Assembly: GCF_001571045.1 (NCBI RefSeq)
Contig: NZ_BCSV01000001.1
Coordinates: 1-64,000, forward strand
Direction: 5' to 3'
Length of the DNA stretch: 64,000 bases
Source: Curtobacterium ammoniigenes NBRC 101786
Lineage (GTDB): Bacteria > Actinomycetota > Actinomycetes > Actinomycetales > Microbacteriaceae
Below, in pieces: positions 20,046 through 35,014 of the stretch; within the stretch, counting starts at the first letter, position 1; every line of letters starts with the position of its first letter. Under the pieces are notes generated by a model, which made no database searches, was not told the DNA's origin, and was given only the letters and a program-made list of their open reading frames with translations. The position numbers were made by a program, and so were the translations under genes.

Positions 20046-20936
20046 ATGGGTTTTCAGATTTCCAAAGCCGTGATCCCTGCGGCCGGCCTCGGCACTCGAT
20101 TCCTGCCTGCGACGAAGGCGATGCCGAAGGAGATGCTCCCGGTCGTGGACAAGCCCGCCATCCAATACGTCGTGGAAGAAGCGGTCGACGCGGGCCTGCA
20201 CGACGTGCTGATGATTACCGGGCGCAATAAGAATGCGCTTGAAAACCATTTCGACCACGTGTCCGAGCTCGAGGAGACCCTGCGCAAGAAGGGTGACCAC
20301 GACAAGCTCAAGAAGGTCAACCAGTCGACGGACCTCGCCGACATGCACTACGTCCGTCAGGGCGATCCGCTGGGCCTCGGGCATGCGGTGCTCCGCGCGC
20401 GGATGCATGTTGGGCGTGAGCCGTTCGCGGTGCTCCTCGGTGACGACATCATCGATGCTCGCGACCCGCTGCTCAAGCGGATGATCGAGGTCCAGGGGGA
20501 GCGGAACGCCACGGTCGTCGCACTCCTCGAGGTTCCCGAGTCGCAGACCCACATGTATGGGATCGCGACCGTCGAGCCGACGGATGTCGAGGATGTCGTG
20601 AAGATCACGGGTCTCGTCGAGAAGCCCCCGGCGGGGGAAGCCCCGTCGAACCTCGCGATCATCGGCCGGTACGTGATCCGCCCCGAGGTGTTCGACGTGC
20701 TCGAGAAGCAGGAGCCCGGGAAGGGCGGCGAGATCCAGCTCACCGACGCGCTCATGAAGATGGCAGGCGCGGAAGAGTGGACCGGCGGGGTGTACGGCGT
20801 CGTGTTCCGTGGACGCCGCTACGACACCGGTGACAAACTCGACTACATCAAGGCGATCGTTCAGCTCGCCTCCGACCGCGACGATCTCGGGCCGGACCTC
20901 CGGGCCTGGCTGACCGAGTTCGTCGCGGACGAGTAA
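20046..20936 (+). CDS. galU: UTP-glucose-1-phosphate uridylyltransferase
   Basis: 296-residue nucleotidyltransferase making UDP-glucose from UTP and glucose-1-phosphate. Hallmarks: AVIPAAGLGTRFLPATKAMPKEMLPVVDKP at the N-terminus (nucleotide loop and catalytic Lys), FAVLLGDDIID with the metal Asp, and ITGLVEKPP and GEIQLTDAL further on. Its product feeds the UDP-glucose dehydrogenase at 33587 and glycan or trehalose synthesis. Not in an operon with those genes. Confidence 0.95.
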   Translation: MGFQISKAVIPAAGLGTRFLPATKAMPKEMLPVVDKPAIQYVVEEAVDAGLHDVLMITGRNKNALENHFDHVSELEETLRKKGDHDKLKKVNQSTDLADMHYVRQGDPLGLGHAVLRARMHVGREPFAVLLGDDIIDARDPLLKRMIEVQGERNATVVALLEVPESQTHMYGIATVEPTDVEDVVKITGLVEKPPAGEAPSNLAIIGRYVIRPEVFDVLEKQEPGKGGEIQLTDALMKMAGAEEWTGGVYGVVFRGRRYDTGDKLDYIKAIVQLASDRDDLGPDLRAWLTEFVADE

Positions 20937-28766: not shown

Positions 28767-30164
28767 ATGTACCCACTGGAAATGCTTCCCGCGACCCTGG
28801 CGCACGCCGTACCCGCGGCGGTCGGCGCGCTGCAGCTCGCCGCCGCCCACGCGGCTCCGACCCACAACGCGCTCCAGACGATCTTCAACGAGGTCACCTC
28901 GCTCGGTCATCAGGCGCTCCGCTACCTGACGATCGGCCTCGCCGGCATCATCGTTTGGTCGCTGTGGCTCTACCGCGTGATCCTCTCGGCGATCGCCAAG
29001 CCCGTCGTCAACGACTTCCGCACGACCACATCGGTCGTCGTGCCCTCCTACCACGAGGATCCCGACATCCTGCTCCGCTGCCTCGAGAGCTGGCGGTCGC
29101 AGCATCCGGACGAGATCATCATCGTGCTCGACGTCGCGGACGTCGACGCCTACCAGCGCATCGTCGCGATCGGCGATCCGACCGTCAAGCCGGTGCTGTT
29201 CCACCACGTCGGCAAGCGGAGCGCCCTCGGACAGGGCATCCGCATGGCGCGCTACGACACCGTCGTGCTCGTCGACTCGGACACGTCGTGGGAGCCCGGC
29301 CTCCTCGAGGCGGTGCAGATGCCCTTCATCGACCCGGCGGTCGGCGGCGTCGGGACGCAGCAGAACGTCTATCAGCGCAACTCGAGCCTCTGGCGGATGA
29401 TCGCCGACTGGCTGGTGAACCTCCGCTACTACAACTACGTCCCGGCCATGGGGCGTGCCGGTGCGGTGCCCTGCCTCTCCGGTCGGACCGCCGCGTACCG
29501 GCGTACCGCGATCCTGCCGGTGCTCGACAACCTCGAGAACGAGTTCTTCATGGGGCGCCGGTGCATCGCCGGCGATGACGGGAGGCTCACCTGGCTGGTC
29601 CTTGCCTCCGGCTTCAAGACCGTGCACCAGTCGAACGCGAAAGCGCTCTCGATGTTCCCCGCGAGCATGCGAGCGTTCTTCAAGCAGCGCCTCCGCTGGA
29701 GCCGCAACTCCTATCGGACCTATCTGACGGCGATCGCGAAGGGCTGGGTGTGGCGGGTGCCGTTCGTCACCAAGATCACCGTGCTCCAGATCATCCTCAC
29801 GCCGCTCACCATGGGCATCACGATCTGGTACCTCGTGTTCAGCCGGCTCGAGATCAGCGTCGTCGGCGCCTGGTTCGTCCTCGCCTGGCTGCTCGTCGGT
29901 CGTATGATCCGCGGGCTCAGCGACCTGAAGCGCCACCCGCTCGACTTCTTCATCCTGCCGATCCTGGCCCTCGTCGTGATCGTGATCGCGCTGCCGATCA
30001 AGGTGTACGCGTTCCTCACGATGAACAAGCAGGGTTGGCTCACCCGGCACGCCGACCGCATCGGCGGTGACGGCCAGACCGCCAGCACCCTCCTTCCACC
30101 CGCGCCGCCGGCTCCCGTCCGCGAAGCGCCCATCCTCACCAACGACGAGGCGGTGACAGCATGA
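28767..30164 (+). CDS. Processive family-2 glycosyltransferase (hyaluronan/chitin/alginate-synthase-like)
   Basis: 465-residue membrane-embedded polysaccharide synthase. An N-terminal helix (about residues 52-75) leads into the cytosolic GT-A domain. UDP-sugar motifs: VVVPSYHEDPD (92-100), the DxD-like VDSD (169-172), the acceptor-site GDD (269-271) and the QRLRW motif (307-311) that marks processive inverting enzymes. Three or four C-terminal helices form the export channel (330-430). It should polymerise a nucleotide sugar and export the chain. First of three overlapping genes with secreted beta-helix proteins, then UDP-glucose dehydrogenase. GAGGA about 9 bases before ATG 28767. Confidence 0.9.
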   Translation: MYPLEMLPATLAHAVPAAVGALQLAAAHAAPTHNALQTIFNEVTSLGHQALRYLTIGLAGIIVWSLWLYRVILSAIAKPVVNDFRTTTSVVVPSYHEDPDILLRCLESWRSQHPDEIIIVLDVADVDAYQRIVAIGDPTVKPVLFHHVGKRSALGQGIRMARYDTVVLVDSDTSWEPGLLEAVQMPFIDPAVGGVGTQQNVYQRNSSLWRMIADWLVNLRYYNYVPAMGRAGAVPCLSGRTAAYRRTAILPVLDNLENEFFMGRRCIAGDDGRLTWLVLASGFKTVHQSNAKALSMFPASMRAFFKQRLRWSRNSYRTYLTAIAKGWVWRVPFVTKITVLQIILTPLTMGITIWYLVFSRLEISVVGAWFVLAWLLVGRMIRGLSDLKRHPLDFFILPILALVVIVIALPIKVYAFLTMNKQGWLTRHADRIGGDGQTASTLLPPAPPAPVREAPILTNDEAVTA

Positions 30165-32266
30165 CCACCACGACCCGAGCCTCCGGAGGAGGCGCCCGCC
30201 GCGCGACCCGTGTCCTCGCTGCGACGATCGCGATCGCCACGGCTGCAGCGCTCGCCGTGCTCATCCCGGCCAGCGCCCAGGCAGCGACCGCACCCACACC
30301 CGTCACCGGCACGAACGCGGCCGGCCAGCAGGTGATCACCGGGCGCCCCTACCCCGGCAGCCCGAACAAGGAGGCCAAGCTCGTCGACGCCGAGATGCAG
30401 CGCATGTACTCGATCCGCGCGATCAGCTCTGCGGCCAGGTGGAGCGGCGCGAACACGGCGGTGCCGTTCCGGTTGAAGATCGGCAACTCGTTCACGCTTG
30501 TGCTCGTCGCCCGCCAGGCGCCGTACACCGTGCAGGATCTGCTCTCGCTCGCGCCGTCGTCGTTCGTGCAGATGCCGGACCACTCCTATCTGCTGAGCGA
30601 GGACGTCTTCGTCGCGGCGGGCGCGACGCTGCAGCTGTCCAATCCGGACGGCATGCACATCCATCTGCAGAGCAACCCGTCGGGGTTCACGAGCATCGTG
30701 ACTGAGCAGGGGAACCTGCAGGTCGTCGGGTCGGCGAAAGCGCCCGTCGTCCTCGACGCGTGGGATCCGCAGACCGGCAAGGTCGACACGGACACGAGTG
30801 ACGGTCGCTCCTACGTCAGCGTCAACGGCGGCCTTGCCACGTTCAAGTACGCATCCTTCCGGAACCTCGGGTTCTGGAGCGGCGTGACCGGCGGCGTGAC
30901 CCTGTCGCGCACGAAGATGTCCGCCGCGGACATGCTCGTCGCCCGCGGCAACAGTGCCGGCGCCGGCAAGACGCCGCTGCAGAACTTCGGCGCGACCCTC
31001 CTGCCGGCCGGGGTGCCGAACACTCCAGCGAACTCGTCGGTCGATCCGTCGAGCACCGGCGGCTACAGCTACGTGTCCGCACTCATCCAGCACTCGTCGT
31101 TCGTCGGGAACGCCTACGGGCTCTTCCTCACCGGAGCCGACGGCGTCACGATCTCGAACAGCTCGATCCGCGACTCGCTGATCGACGGGCTGGTCCTGCA
31201 CCGCTACGTGACGAACAGCACGATCAGCAGCGTCACGTCCACCGGCAACGCCATCGACGGGGTCGACATGACCCGCGCCTCCACCGGCATCGTGTTCAAC
31301 GAGGTCACCGCGAACGAGAACGGCCGGAACGGGATCACGATCAATGGCACGCCCCTCGCCAGCGGCCCGAACGCCACCGGAACCCCGGTCAACACCTACG
31401 GCAACAACACCGTCACCGACAGCACGGCCAACGACAACGCGCGCTACGGCATCGAGGTGATGGGTGGCCAGAACGTGCGCATCACCGGCAACGAGGTGCG
31501 CGGCGACCTGTCCGGCATCGTCGTGACCAACGCGGCGACGAACGTGACGATCCGCAACAACACCATCGACACGATGCAGAAGAACGGCATCTCGATGATC
31601 ACGAACTCCACCGGGATCACCGTGGCGGACAACGTGATCACGAAGGCCCGGATCGGCGTGTACGGCCGCAATGCCTCCGCGACGATCGCGCGCAACAAGC
31701 TGAGCGGGATCTCGCTGCACGGCGTCGTCCTGCTCGGGACCGCGCAGGGCGCGCTCGTCGAGAACAACACGATCGCCGGACGAGGCCCGAGCGCGGTCGA
31801 CATCGGCCGCGCACAGGGCGCCAAGCAGACCTTCAACACGGTCGACCAGTGGGTCTCCACGAAGCCGCTGCTCGTCACGATCCGGTCGATTTTCCAGCCG
31901 CTGACCGTGATGTGGCTGATCCTGCTGCTCGTTGTCCTCATCGCAGCCATCGGTGGGATCCGTCGCCGTCGCCGCGGTGCCGTCCGTGCCCACCCGTACG
32001 CGGCGCTCGCCCCGCTCTCCTCCTACACGAAGGGTGTGGTCGACCCCGAGACGCTCGGACTCCCCCCGGCGCCCTACCGGCTCGCGGAACGAGCGGCCGC
32101 GCAGGAGCCCGCGCCGACCGAGTCCGCGGTGGTACCAGCCGCCATGTCCGACGCTGCGGCGAACGGCTCGGAGCGCGACACCGAACGGGAGGCTGCCCAA
32201 CCGTCGCCGGTAGGCCTCCGATTCGATGACGGGCCGGCCGGCGCGATCCCCGCGATGGGAGTGTGA
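30161..32266 (+). CDS. Secreted, membrane-anchored right-handed beta-helix protein
   Basis: 701 residues. A signal peptide lies at about residues 17-42 (ending ASAQAA). Residues about 280-560 are successive beta-helix coils with Asn-ladder repeats (FLTGADGVTISNSSI, NNTVTDSTANDNARYGIEV, VTIRNNTIDTMQKNGI). One C-terminal transmembrane helix (PLTVMWLILLLVVLIAAIGG) precedes RRRRR and a 100-residue cytoplasmic tail. The fold is that of polysaccharide C5-epimerases, lyases and hydrolases. ATG overlaps the glycosyltransferase stop (ATGA), so they are made together. Probable job: modifying the exported chain at the outer membrane face. Catalytic residues cannot be assigned by eye. Confidence 0.85.
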   Translation: MTTTTRASGGGARRATRVLAATIAIATAAALAVLIPASAQAATAPTPVTGTNAAGQQVITGRPYPGSPNKEAKLVDAEMQRMYSIRAISSAARWSGANTAVPFRLKIGNSFTLVLVARQAPYTVQDLLSLAPSSFVQMPDHSYLLSEDVFVAAGATLQLSNPDGMHIHLQSNPSGFTSIVTEQGNLQVVGSAKAPVVLDAWDPQTGKVDTDTSDGRSYVSVNGGLATFKYASFRNLGFWSGVTGGVTLSRTKMSAADMLVARGNSAGAGKTPLQNFGATLLPAGVPNTPANSSVDPSSTGGYSYVSALIQHSSFVGNAYGLFLTGADGVTISNSSIRDSLIDGLVLHRYVTNSTISSVTSTGNAIDGVDMTRASTGIVFNEVTANENGRNGITINGTPLASGPNATGTPVNTYGNNTVTDSTANDNARYGIEVMGGQNVRITGNEVRGDLSGIVVTNAATNVTIRNNTIDTMQKNGISMITNSTGITVADNVITKARIGVYGRNASATIARNKLSGISLHGVVLLGTAQGALVENNTIAGRGPSAVDIGRAQGAKQTFNTVDQWVSTKPLLVTIRSIFQPLTVMWLILLLVVLIAAIGGIRRRRRGAVRAHPYAALAPLSSYTKGVVDPETLGLPPAPYRLAERAAAQEPAPTESAVVPAAMSDAAANGSERDTEREAAQPSPVGLRFDDGPAGAIPAMGV

Positions 32267-33387
32267 TCCGCATGGCTCACGCGATCAGCACCGTCCGCAC
32301 GCCCCTCATCGCCGCGATCGCCGGGCTCGTGATCGGTGGACTCGTCGTCAGCTCCGTCTGGCTCGCCGTCGCCCTGCGCGGCCCGGGCGGCGGACACCAC
32401 CCGGTCGCTGCACCGGTCGACCGACCGACAGCGACCGCGACGCCGAGTCCGAGCACGGCGGGCGGGGCGGCGCTCGCCGGCCCCACTCCGGCCGCATGCG
32501 CACACCCCACCGCCACGGTGACCACCGCGAAGGCGCTTGAGAAAGCCCTGGCTGCTGTGCACGCGGGCAGCGTGATCGCGATCGCTTCCGGAACATACAG
32601 CGGCAAGTTCGTCGGCTCGGGCAGTGGCACCGCTCAGAACCCCATTGCACTCTGCGGGGCGAGCGGCGTCGTCCTCGACGGCGGCGGCGTGCACTCCGGC
32701 TACGCCCTCCACATTCAGGACGGCTCGAACTGGGTCGTCTACGGCGTCCACGTGCAGAACGCGCAGAAGGGCATCGTCTTCGACACGGTCAGCCACTCCC
32801 TGATCGACAGCGTGACGGTCACCGACATCGGCGACGAGGGGATCCACCTCCGCAAAGGATCGACCTACGACACGATCAGCCACAGCTCGGTGAGCGGAAC
32901 CGGCACCTACAAGCCGCAGTTCGGTGAGGGCATCTACGTCGGATCGTCGAAGAACAACTGGTGCTCCTTGACCAACTGTCAACCAGACCGGAGCGATCAC
33001 AACCTGATCACCGGGAACACGATCTTCGACACCGGCGCCGAGAACATCGACATCAAGGAGGGCACCACCGCCGGAACGATCTCCGACAACTCCTTGAACG
33101 GCACCGGGATGCAGGGCAAGAACAGCGCGACCTCGTGGGTGAACGTCAAGGGGAACAACTGGACGATCACCGGAAACCACGGCGTGCACTCCATCAAGGA
33201 CGGGTTCTCCACACACCAACTCCTGAACGGATGGGGCACCGACAACACGTTCTCGGACAACACCGTGCAACTCGACAACAGCACGGGCGTCGCGTTCGCG
33301 CTCAGGCCGGTCCTCGGCAACGTCGTCGACTGCAACAACACCGTGATCGGCTCGAACGAGCTGAGTACGACCAAGTGCACCGGCTGA
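32263..33387 (+). CDS. Second beta-helix polysaccharide-active protein
   Basis: 374 residues. One N-terminal anchor helix (TPLIAAIAGLVIGGLVVSSVWLAVAL), a Pro/Thr/Ala linker to about residue 80, then a pectate-lyase-like parallel beta-helix: ALEKALAAVHAGSVIAIASGTYSGKF, SGVVLDGGG, VYGVHVQNAQKGIVFD, DIGDEGIHLRKGS and HNLITGNTIFDTGAENIDIKEG. The DEG and ENIDIK edges are similar to substrate-facing positions of lyases and epimerases. GTG 32263 overlaps the previous stop (GTGA); ATG 32272 is an alternative. Predicted extracellular and tethered. Confidence 0.83.
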   Translation: MIRMAHAISTVRTPLIAAIAGLVIGGLVVSSVWLAVALRGPGGGHHPVAAPVDRPTATATPSPSTAGGAALAGPTPAACAHPTATVTTAKALEKALAAVHAGSVIAIASGTYSGKFVGSGSGTAQNPIALCGASGVVLDGGGVHSGYALHIQDGSNWVVYGVHVQNAQKGIVFDTVSHSLIDSVTVTDIGDEGIHLRKGSTYDTISHSSVSGTGTYKPQFGEGIYVGSSKNNWCSLTNCQPDRSDHNLITGNTIFDTGAENIDIKEGTTAGTISDNSLNGTGMQGKNSATSWVNVKGNNWTITGNHGVHSIKDGFSTHQLLNGWGTDNTFSDNTVQLDNSTGVAFALRPVLGNVVDCNNTVIGSNELSTTKCTG

Positions 33388-33586
33388 GGCGTAGCGCTCC
33401 AGCCCGCACCCGCACCCCTTCACCCGTGCTGCTCCACTCCGAACCGCACCACTCGCACCGCTTCACCCCGCACCGCTTCACGCACTCCGCACCCGCACCG
33501 CTTCCAGACCGGTGACCGCCGCGAGCGAACCCGAACCGAACGCGACCGTCACCATTCCATACCGCTGACCCGAAAGCGAGACCACC

Positions 33587-35014
33587 ATGTCCGACCAGAT
33601 CCGCCCCGCGGCGGCGACCCTGCCGCCCATCGCCGAACACCCCCGCCTCACCGTCATCGGAACCGGCTATCTCGGCGCCACCCACGCCGTGTCGATGGCC
33701 GTCCTCGGGTACGAGGTCCTCGGCGTCGACGTCGATCCCGCCAAAATCGACGCGCTGCTCGCCGGCCGTGTTCCGTTTCATGAGCCGGGCCTCCCGGAAA
33801 AACTCGCGGAGGCGCTCGCGAGCGGCCGGCTCCACTTCACGACGAGCTTCGACGAGGCCGCGCGCTTCGGCGACGTCCATTTCATCTGCGTCGGAACACC
33901 CCAACAGCGGAACTCGAACGCGGCCGATCTGCGATTCGTCGACTCGGCCGTCACCGAACTCGCCCGTCGGATCGACCGCAAGGCACTGATCGTCGGCAAG
34001 TCGACGGTGCCGATCGGAACCGCGCAGCGGCTCACGACCCTCGTGCACGAGGTGTCCCCGGCAGGCGCGGACATCGAGCTGGCGTGGAACCCGGAGTTCC
34101 TGCGCGAAGGGTGGGCGGTTGAGGACACCCTGCACCCCGACCGGCTCGTCTTCGGCGTCGCCTCGGCATGGGCGGAGGCGCAGCTGCGCGCGGCGTTCCG
34201 GCCCATCCTCGACGACGGCACACCGCTTGTCGTCGTCGACCTGGCGACGGCGGAACTCGTCAAGGTCGCGGCGAACTCGTTCCTCGCGACGAAGATCTCG
34301 TTCATCAACGCGATGGCCGAGGTGTGCGAGGCGACCGGCGCGGACGTCAACCTGCTCGCGTCCGCGCTCGCATACGACTCGCGAATCGGGGGTCGGTTCC
34401 TGAAGCCCGGGCTCGGGTTCGGCGGCGGCTGCTTGCCGAAGGACATCCGCGCGTTCACCGCACGAGCGGAGGAGCTCGGTGTGGGGAACGCCGTGCAGTT
34501 CCTCCGCGAGGTCGACGGGATCAACCTGCGCCGACGCACCCGCACCGTGGATCTGGTGCGGGAGCTCGCCGGCGGAACGCTCGAGGGGAAGCGGATCGCC
34601 GCGCTCGGGGCGACGTTCAAGCCGAATTCAGACGACATCCGTGATGCACCTGCGCTCGACGTGGCGCACATGCTGCACGGAGAGGGGGCGATCGTGTCCG
34701 TCTACGATCCCGCGGGAATGGAGAATGCGCGGCGGGTGCGGCCTGACCTGCACTACGCGCCCTCCATCGCTGCGGCCGTGATGGACGCCGATGTCGTGGT
34801 GCTGCTCACCGAATGGCAGCAGTTCCGCGACGCAAACCCGCGCGATCTGGGAACGCTCGTCCGCGAGCGCAAGGTCGTCGACGGGCGTCACGCTCTCGAC
34901 GCGGATCGCTACCGCGCCGCAGGCTGGGAGTACCGCGCACTGGGTCGCCCGACGCATTCGCGAACGGTCGAACTGTCCGTGGACGCGCGGGACGCTGCGC
35001 TGCAATCAGCCTGA
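33587..35014 (+). CDS. UDP-glucose 6-dehydrogenase
   Basis: 475-residue cytosolic enzyme oxidising UDP-glucose to UDP-glucuronate with two NAD. Rossmann GTGYLG at 25-30, NPEFLREGWAVEDTLHPDR at 168-186, catalytic Cys282 in GFGGGCLPKD, and FKPNSDDIRDAPAL in the UDP-binding C-domain. The GGGCLPKD form is typical of actinobacterial UDP-glucose dehydrogenases. It starts 199 bp after the second beta-helix gene and would give the synthase its uronic-acid donor, so the polymer is probably a polyuronide or contains glucuronate. Confidence 0.9.
   Translation: MSDQIRPAAATLPPIAEHPRLTVIGTGYLGATHAVSMAVLGYEVLGVDVDPAKIDALLAGRVPFHEPGLPEKLAEALASGRLHFTTSFDEAARFGDVHFICVGTPQQRNSNAADLRFVDSAVTELARRIDRKALIVGKSTVPIGTAQRLTTLVHEVSPAGADIELAWNPEFLREGWAVEDTLHPDRLVFGVASAWAEAQLRAAFRPILDDGTPLVVVDLATAELVKVAANSFLATKISFINAMAEVCEATGADVNLLASALAYDSRIGGRFLKPGLGFGGGCLPKDIRAFTARAEELGVGNAVQFLREVDGINLRRRTRTVDLVRELAGGTLEGKRIAALGATFKPNSDDIRDAPALDVAHMLHGEGAIVSVYDPAGMENARRVRPDLHYAPSIAAAVMDADVVVLLTEWQQFRDANPRDLGTLVRERKVVDGRHALDADRYRAAGWEYRALGRPTHSRTVELSVDARDAALQSA

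Follow-up and report, generated by a model that had tools for sequence, protein, structure and literature searches.

Four co-directional genes of Curtobacterium ammoniigenes as a candidate minimal polyuronate operon of monoderm bacteria

Can a monoderm bacterium make, export and edit a uronate polymer with four genes? The question is raised by positions 28,767 to 35,014 of a 64,000-nucleotide stretch of Curtobacterium ammoniigenes NBRC 101786 (contig NZ_BCSV01000001.1, positions 1 to 64,000; hereafter the window), which encode a glycosyltransferase (GT), two beta-helix proteins (BH1 and BH2) and a UDP-glucose-type dehydrogenase (UGD). A first-pass annotation had read this segment as an alginate-parallel uronate export and editing locus, with UDP-glucuronate as the likely donor and without a lyase. 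The gene logic and the type of dehydrogenase bear out this reading, but its lyase-free part does not stand, as BH2 is a PL31-like lyase homologue. We favor, with somewhat better than even confidence, the view that these genes form a minimal polyuronate operon of the synthase-dependent kind in a monoderm bacterium, its product likely being a beta-1,4-glucuronan, perhaps containing L-iduronate. In our judgement, it is probable that the polymer contains uronate, while the chance that it is specifically glucuronan-like lies a shade under even. The four genes are:

28767..30164, + strand: GT, processive family-2 synthase of the hyaluronan synthase (HAS)/NodC clan, proposed polyuronate synthase and exporter (PF13641; PDB matches are hyaluronan synthases)
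30161..32266, + strand: BH1, AlgG-clan beta-helix, proposed to act at the surface as a C5-epimerase or chain guide; it has a signal sequence and a C-terminal membrane anchor
32263..33387, + strand: BH2, membrane-tethered PL31-like lyase (an ATG start at 32272 is possible)
33587..35014, + strand: UGD, UDP-glucose-type 6-dehydrogenase, proposed source of UDP-glucuronate (TIGR03026 above cut-off)

The four open reading frames (465, 701, 374 and 475 amino acids) lie in one direction at the positions first proposed, and GT and BH1 overlap as predicted through an ATGA at 30161-30164. The second proposed overlap, a GTGA at 32263-32266 between BH1 and BH2, exists with the GTG start of BH2 and disappears with the ATG at 32272. 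It is start-dependent because the database copy of BH2 (P0121, 371 residues) is three residues shorter and would begin at that ATG. Hydropathy agrees with two secreted, tethered beta-helix proteins: each has an N-terminal hydrophobic span (residues 18-36 in BH1, 15-33 in BH2), and BH1 also has a C-terminal one. No sequence likeness between BH1 and BH2 was detectable (BLASTP E 0.17).

The set recurs in other actinobacteria. Scanning database contigs with a BH1 profile and keeping the best 80 of 203 stretches yielded 79 distinct loci (type I), from genera that include Curtobacterium, Microbacterium, Cellulomonas, Kribbella, Nocardioides, Kineococcus, Streptomyces, Arthrobacter, Actinoplanes and Catellatospora. 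Beside BH1, GT was found in 78/79 loci, BH2 in 76/79 and UGD in 58/79; where more than 3 kb was available downstream (70 loci), the counts were 70, 70 and 56. A long dehydrogenase was seen in 60 of the 79 loci, a short one in 0, and none within the fetched DNA in 19. After clustering of the 930 called genes, only the GT, BH1, BH2 and UGD families occurred in more than 12 loci, no fifth family doing so (models for Alg44, AlgK, AlgE and AlgX/I/J/F were not searched). Because the set recurs in 79 loci with no other family beside it in more than 12, the module exceeds chance.

Among 120 genomes of the family, BH1 was present in 7, and GT at E<1e-230 in exactly these 7; the two same-genus genomes listed had no BH1 and a distant GT only (E about 1e-61). 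The locus is therefore accessory. Searched against 296 phylum genomes, BH1 matched 38 at E 1e-3, with E<1e-90 only in this genome and in G230; the G013 match (7.6e-31) is in pieces, and that genome carries the full gene set (locus L115).

As the first-pass annotation had stated, GT bears the motifs of a processive polymerase, namely a DxD motif (DSD, residues 170-172) and:

29571..29579, + strand: GDD motif of GT, residues 269-271, kept in 78/78 type I GTs
29685..29699, + strand: QRLRW motif of GT, residues 307-311, with Q, R and W kept in 78/78 type I GTs

The features of class I hyaluronan synthases (DxD, GDD, QxxRW and the uracil-pocket residues) are present in type I GTs (78/78). In the Chlorella-virus HAS (CvHAS), the residues near the uracil, the cation and the priming site are described in PMC12987647, and these are kept in all 78, residue 95 being Tyr or Phe. 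All five distinct PDB sequences matched by GT are hyaluronan synthases, as are five of the seven matches of a GT profile, the remaining two being one family-2 enzyme. Clustering with cellulose or chitin synthases had been named at the outset as an outcome that would speak against a uronate polymer; no such synthase was among the PDB matches at E 1e-3.

UGD fits the dehydrogenase originally claimed: it scores 321 bits to UDP-glucose dehydrogenase versus 193 bits to GDP-mannose dehydrogenase, which places it closer to the former than to the AlgD kind. It has the three Pfam domains of three-domain NDP-sugar dehydrogenases and does not reach the TuaD and AglM equivalog cut-offs. The galU gene expected elsewhere in the window was also found, its family match (20058-20855) exceeding the curated cut-off:

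20046-20933 (approx.), + strand: galU, UDP-glucose source, in the same window and outside the operon

A second UDP-glucose dehydrogenase copy of the same genome (G000:C1:549529-550842) is 58% identical, the match holding one TGA; the third dehydrogenase of this class in the genome is of the ManNAc type.

BH2 is kin to PsAly, the PL31 alginate lyase of Paenibacillus, in both sequence and fold (PDB 6kfn; 37% identity, root-mean-square deviation 1.5 over 288 residues). Its counterparts of the catalytic residues are:

32935..32937, + strand: BH2 Tyr225, corresponding to Tyr184 of PsAly, 75/75 loci
33055..33057, + strand: BH2 Lys265, corresponding to Lys221 of PsAly, 75/75 loci

Together with the first cation site (Glu181, Glu216 and Asp219 in PsAly), these are kept in all 46 aligned rows, two of which are the window protein, and in all 75 loci. 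Lys128, His154, Arg156, Lys252 and His278 of PsAly are retained too, and Asp188 and Lys191 are replaced in the window protein. BH2 differs from PsAly in being membrane-tethered and encoded in a biosynthetic operon.

The lyase bears on whether the product might instead be a hyaluronan-like heteropolymer, made by a GT that alternates UDP-glucuronate and UDP-N-acetylglucosamine and cut by the lyase at uronate. This would suit the PDB relatives of GT, the matched CvHAS residues, the UGD within the operon and the naming of some database copies as hyaluronan synthase. We nevertheless judge it improbable: among solved structures PsAly is closest to BH2, and of the uronate polymers on which it was tried it cleaved alginate but not pectin, heparin, xanthan or gellan (hyaluronan lying outside the tested list), the AlgG clan acts on contiguous polyuronate, and the match of GT to hyaluronan synthases is distant (about 70-85 bits; 81-85 bits for the profile).

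BH1 displays the AlgG-type beta-helix fold and N-terminal domain, at 15% identity in structural alignment with AlgG (PDB 4nk6, 4ozz). Thus, with BH1 AlgG-like and BH2 PL31-like, a resemblance to phage tail or adhesin families alone, which would have argued against polymer editing, was not what was found. The BH1 features of interest are:

31199..31204, + strand: BH1 His347-Arg348, His347 aligned with the histidine of the DPH motif, each in 78/79 loci
31274..31276, + strand: BH1 Arg372, sharing a coil column with the AlgG arginine, 78/79 loci; the column is assigned from coil position
31904..31960, + strand: BH1 C-terminal membrane span, residues 582-600 by hydropathy (model helix 580-605)

Arg503 and His520 are also kept, in 79/79 loci. 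The register that places His347 on the DPH histidine was adopted because MAFFT over 18 proteins and hhalign both give it; a local alignment that set the AlgG arginine, which we take to be Arg345, on Arg348 was one coil off and was rejected. The structural alignment shows end points only and so does not decide the register. We rate the chance that BH1 is catalytically active as an epimerase at about even. The presumed cytoplasmic tail that follows its membrane span (about residues 610-630) is conserved, with the family consensus HPYA..APL.S.TRGVV, and may contact the synthase.

Several observations weigh against an active polyuronate operon as proposed here. The top curated model for GT is NodC (147 bits, cut-off 550), which does not give a donor assignment, and a neighboring UGD is absent in 14/70 loci. 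In BH2, Asn294 stands at the position of PsAly Asp250, and the D250N mutant of PsAly keeps 0.25% activity (PMC6796002). Moreover, the second cation site of PsAly (Tyr244, Asp246, Gln276) is not kept, these positions being Ser288, Thr290 and Ser316 in the window protein; as the active lyase SjAly does not conserve this site either (PMC6796002), it is not essential. Regarding BH1, 38/53 rows matched the curated AlgG model NF038177 (best 1.6e-9, limit E<=1), without the window protein among them; the NosD model matched more, 52/53 (best 3.5e-14). The window protein is near the cut-off of neither model (700 bits for NF038177), and NF038177 found no match in its own genome and 12 in the 296 phylum genomes, none above cut-off. 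The catalytic AlgG motif YG(F/I)DPH(D/E), shortened here to YGxDPH, is absent from BH1 in 53/53 rows, the letters DPH occurring elsewhere in one. Tyr314, Asp317 and Pro318 of AlgG correspond to Asp342, Val345 and Leu346; with the Tyr and Asp replaced, BH1 may therefore not epimerise. Residue 347 is Gln in one locus (L028), and the BH1 relatives of two type II loci (L090 and L092) have lost both His and Arg.

These losses also suit a uronate polymer on which BH1 acts as a non-catalytic guide, shielding the nascent chain from a lyase that would be the sole editor. Support comes from alginate producers, in which loss of AlgG yields lyase-cut oligomers according to a review (PMC4444821). The conservation of His347, Arg348, Arg372, Arg503 and His520 seems more than a scaffold needs, and we place this explanation, which overlaps with the preferred reading and does not exclude it, distinctly below an even chance. 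The NodC model and the loci without adjacent UGD, together with related loci that pair a GT with a glycosidase (GH26 type, below), would rather fit a chitin- or cellulose-like polymer of neutral or amino sugars, with UGD and the beta-helix proteins serving elsewhere. That is very unlikely, given the strict co-occurrence with the PL31-like lyase (70/70) and the AlgG-clan protein, the single proteins joining a GT to both kinds of BH1-clan beta-helix, and the presence of UGD in the GH26-type loci as well.

Under the preferred polyuronate reading, UGD would form UDP-glucuronate from galU-supplied UDP-glucose, as its sequence supports. By homology with hyaluronan synthase, GT would polymerise this donor and export the chain through its own membrane channel, making an outer-membrane pore unneeded. 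The anchored BH1 would bind the emerging chain at the outer face and probably C5-epimerise some residues; from the fold and the residue positions, His347 could serve as the base, and Arg372 or Arg348 could neutralise the carboxylate. BH2 would then trim or release chains, its presumed substrate, by beta-elimination through Tyr225 and Lys265, in line with its homology and retained residues.

The core of the alginate operon of Pseudomonas and Azotobacter (alg8-algG-algL-algD) likewise brings together a processive family-2 synthase, an AlgG-clan beta-helix, a lyase and a sugar-nucleotide dehydrogenase. The window locus differs by a UDP-glucose-type instead of a GDP-mannose-type dehydrogenase, a PL31-like instead of a PL5 lyase, a replaced YGxDPH motif, no further conserved module genes and a monoderm host. 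Since both the motif and a GDP-mannose-type dehydrogenase are missing, we do not class it as an alginate operon. With AlgG itself, BH1 shares the fold, the N-terminal domain, the coil register, the DPH-motif histidine and an Arg in the equivalent column; its low identity, replaced Tyr/Asp/Pro and C-terminal anchor set it apart. GT resembles the class I Chlorella virus HAS in being a single-subunit family-2 enzyme that has the His and Lys of the uracil pocket along with DxD, GDD and QxxRW. It differs in its polyuronate-enzyme operon partners and in the distance of the profile match. The proposed product, beta-1,4-polyglucuronate, is the glucuronan of Sinorhizobium and Peteryoungia, which are Gram-negative.

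A 2023 report (PMC10180729) describes the genes of glucuronan synthesis as unknown, and a 2020 survey of synthase-dependent operons (PMC7112194) places predicted alginate operons largely in Pseudomonas. A literature search at title and abstract level, with most subscription journals outside its coverage, found no account of the four-gene set. If correct, the polyuronate reading would extend the polymerase-epimerase-lyase-dehydrogenase logic of alginate to monoderms in a four-gene form, widespread but patchy in Actinomycetota, and the loci supply concrete genes to express for the glucuronan question. A glucuronan C5-epimerase would, in addition, offer new access to polymers that contain iduronate.

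Related to the module are actinobacterial loci in which the same family-2 clan goes with an epimerase bearing the canonical YGxDPH motif and with a sugar-nucleotide dehydrogenase of another, short type. Six motif-bearing beta-helix proteins were found in five genomes of other classes of the phylum (L114, L116, L117, L130, L131, L132). Three samples were covered: 5 of 396 phylum genomes matched, as did 3 of 198 genomes from one order, one of which was known from the first sample, and 1 of 27 from another order, likewise a known one, G174 being left out of examination; with so few matches, this type is rare. GT and YGxDPH beta-helix share one reading frame, in opposite domain orders, at L116:6323-8764 (814 amino acids) and L132:7474-10575 (1034 amino acids); a similar join in L114 loses frame in its GT half, and in L130 the two adjoin as separate genes. 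The GT beside L117 falls outside the HAS/NodC-clan match, and the 12 kb fetched for L131 contain no GT of this kind. In G189 (L118), a GT of the clan and a short dehydrogenase occur without the motif. Short dehydrogenases lie near L114, L116, L117, L118, L130 and L132, with long ones near none of them. The Tyr, the Lys and the first cation site are retained by the PL31-like proteins close to L114, L118 and L130, whose other active-site positions are changed. Assigning the short enzyme as a GDP-mannose dehydrogenase was considered (134 vs 103 bits in L117) and set aside, as a four-sequence profile ties (203.1 vs 200.6).

In a GT tree whose root is arbitrary and whose long branches leave the deep order unsure, type I GTs, with L085 among them, form one group (99/99), and the YGxDPH-type GTs lie outside it. 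The uracil-pocket His is Val or Pro in 4/4 YGxDPH-type GTs and is retained in L085, L115, L093 and the type II GTs. It is suggestive and was rejected as proof of UDP use, because GH26-type GTs adjoining UGD carry Ile and HAS1 carries Trp at this position in the profile alignment.

These kin loci and the AlgG-clan and PL31-like partners would accord with true alginate in the window, its dehydrogenase oxidising GDP-mannose and the polymer being mannuronan. We give this little credence: UGD is nearer UDP-glucose dehydrogenase, BH1 has lost YGxDPH, PsAly Asp188 and Lys191 are replaced in BH2, and of the two further dehydrogenases of this class in the genome, one resembles a second UGD and the other a ManNAc type. 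A wider scenario, tentative and on balance doubtful, would have the actinobacterial polyuronate synthases form an old family of the HAS/NodC clan. One branch, with short dehydrogenases and synthase-epimerase fusions, would be truly alginate-like in Gram-positives; the branch of the window would have switched to UDP-glucuronate and rebuilt its epimerase (DPH to xLHR), its four genes making, epimerising and trimming a glucuronan/iduronate polymer. Should this hold, the YGxDPH branch would suggest a family-2 type of candidate for the mannuronan synthase of brown algae, which is still missing.

Two further locus types were met. In the three type II loci (L090, L091, L092) the PL31-like gene lies on the other strand, and L090 and L092 have a GT about 57% identical to that of the window. 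The GH26-type loci L094 (G348:C1:360000-375000) and L095 (G326:C13:35000-50000, same genus), a type met in the same family and genus, encode in one direction UGD, a membrane-tethered GH26-like protein and a GT with about 33% identity to that of the window; here too a synthase is paired with a glycan-cutting protein. A related GT at L093:5662-8217 has three TIG domains in front, and the stretch fetched around it matched neither BH1 nor BH2. Among the type I loci, a record titled Vibrio cholerae strain 35D (L025) holds all four actinobacterial module genes, probably through mislabelling or contamination of the record. L096 (G335:C12:98000-117900), with which L010 seems to share its contig, has a tandem duplication of the module. 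Finally, in six Arthrobacter loci (L037, L038, L043, L048, L052, L070) the module is followed, on the opposite strand, by an extra, more distant PL31-like gene, which in L043 is split into two pieces.
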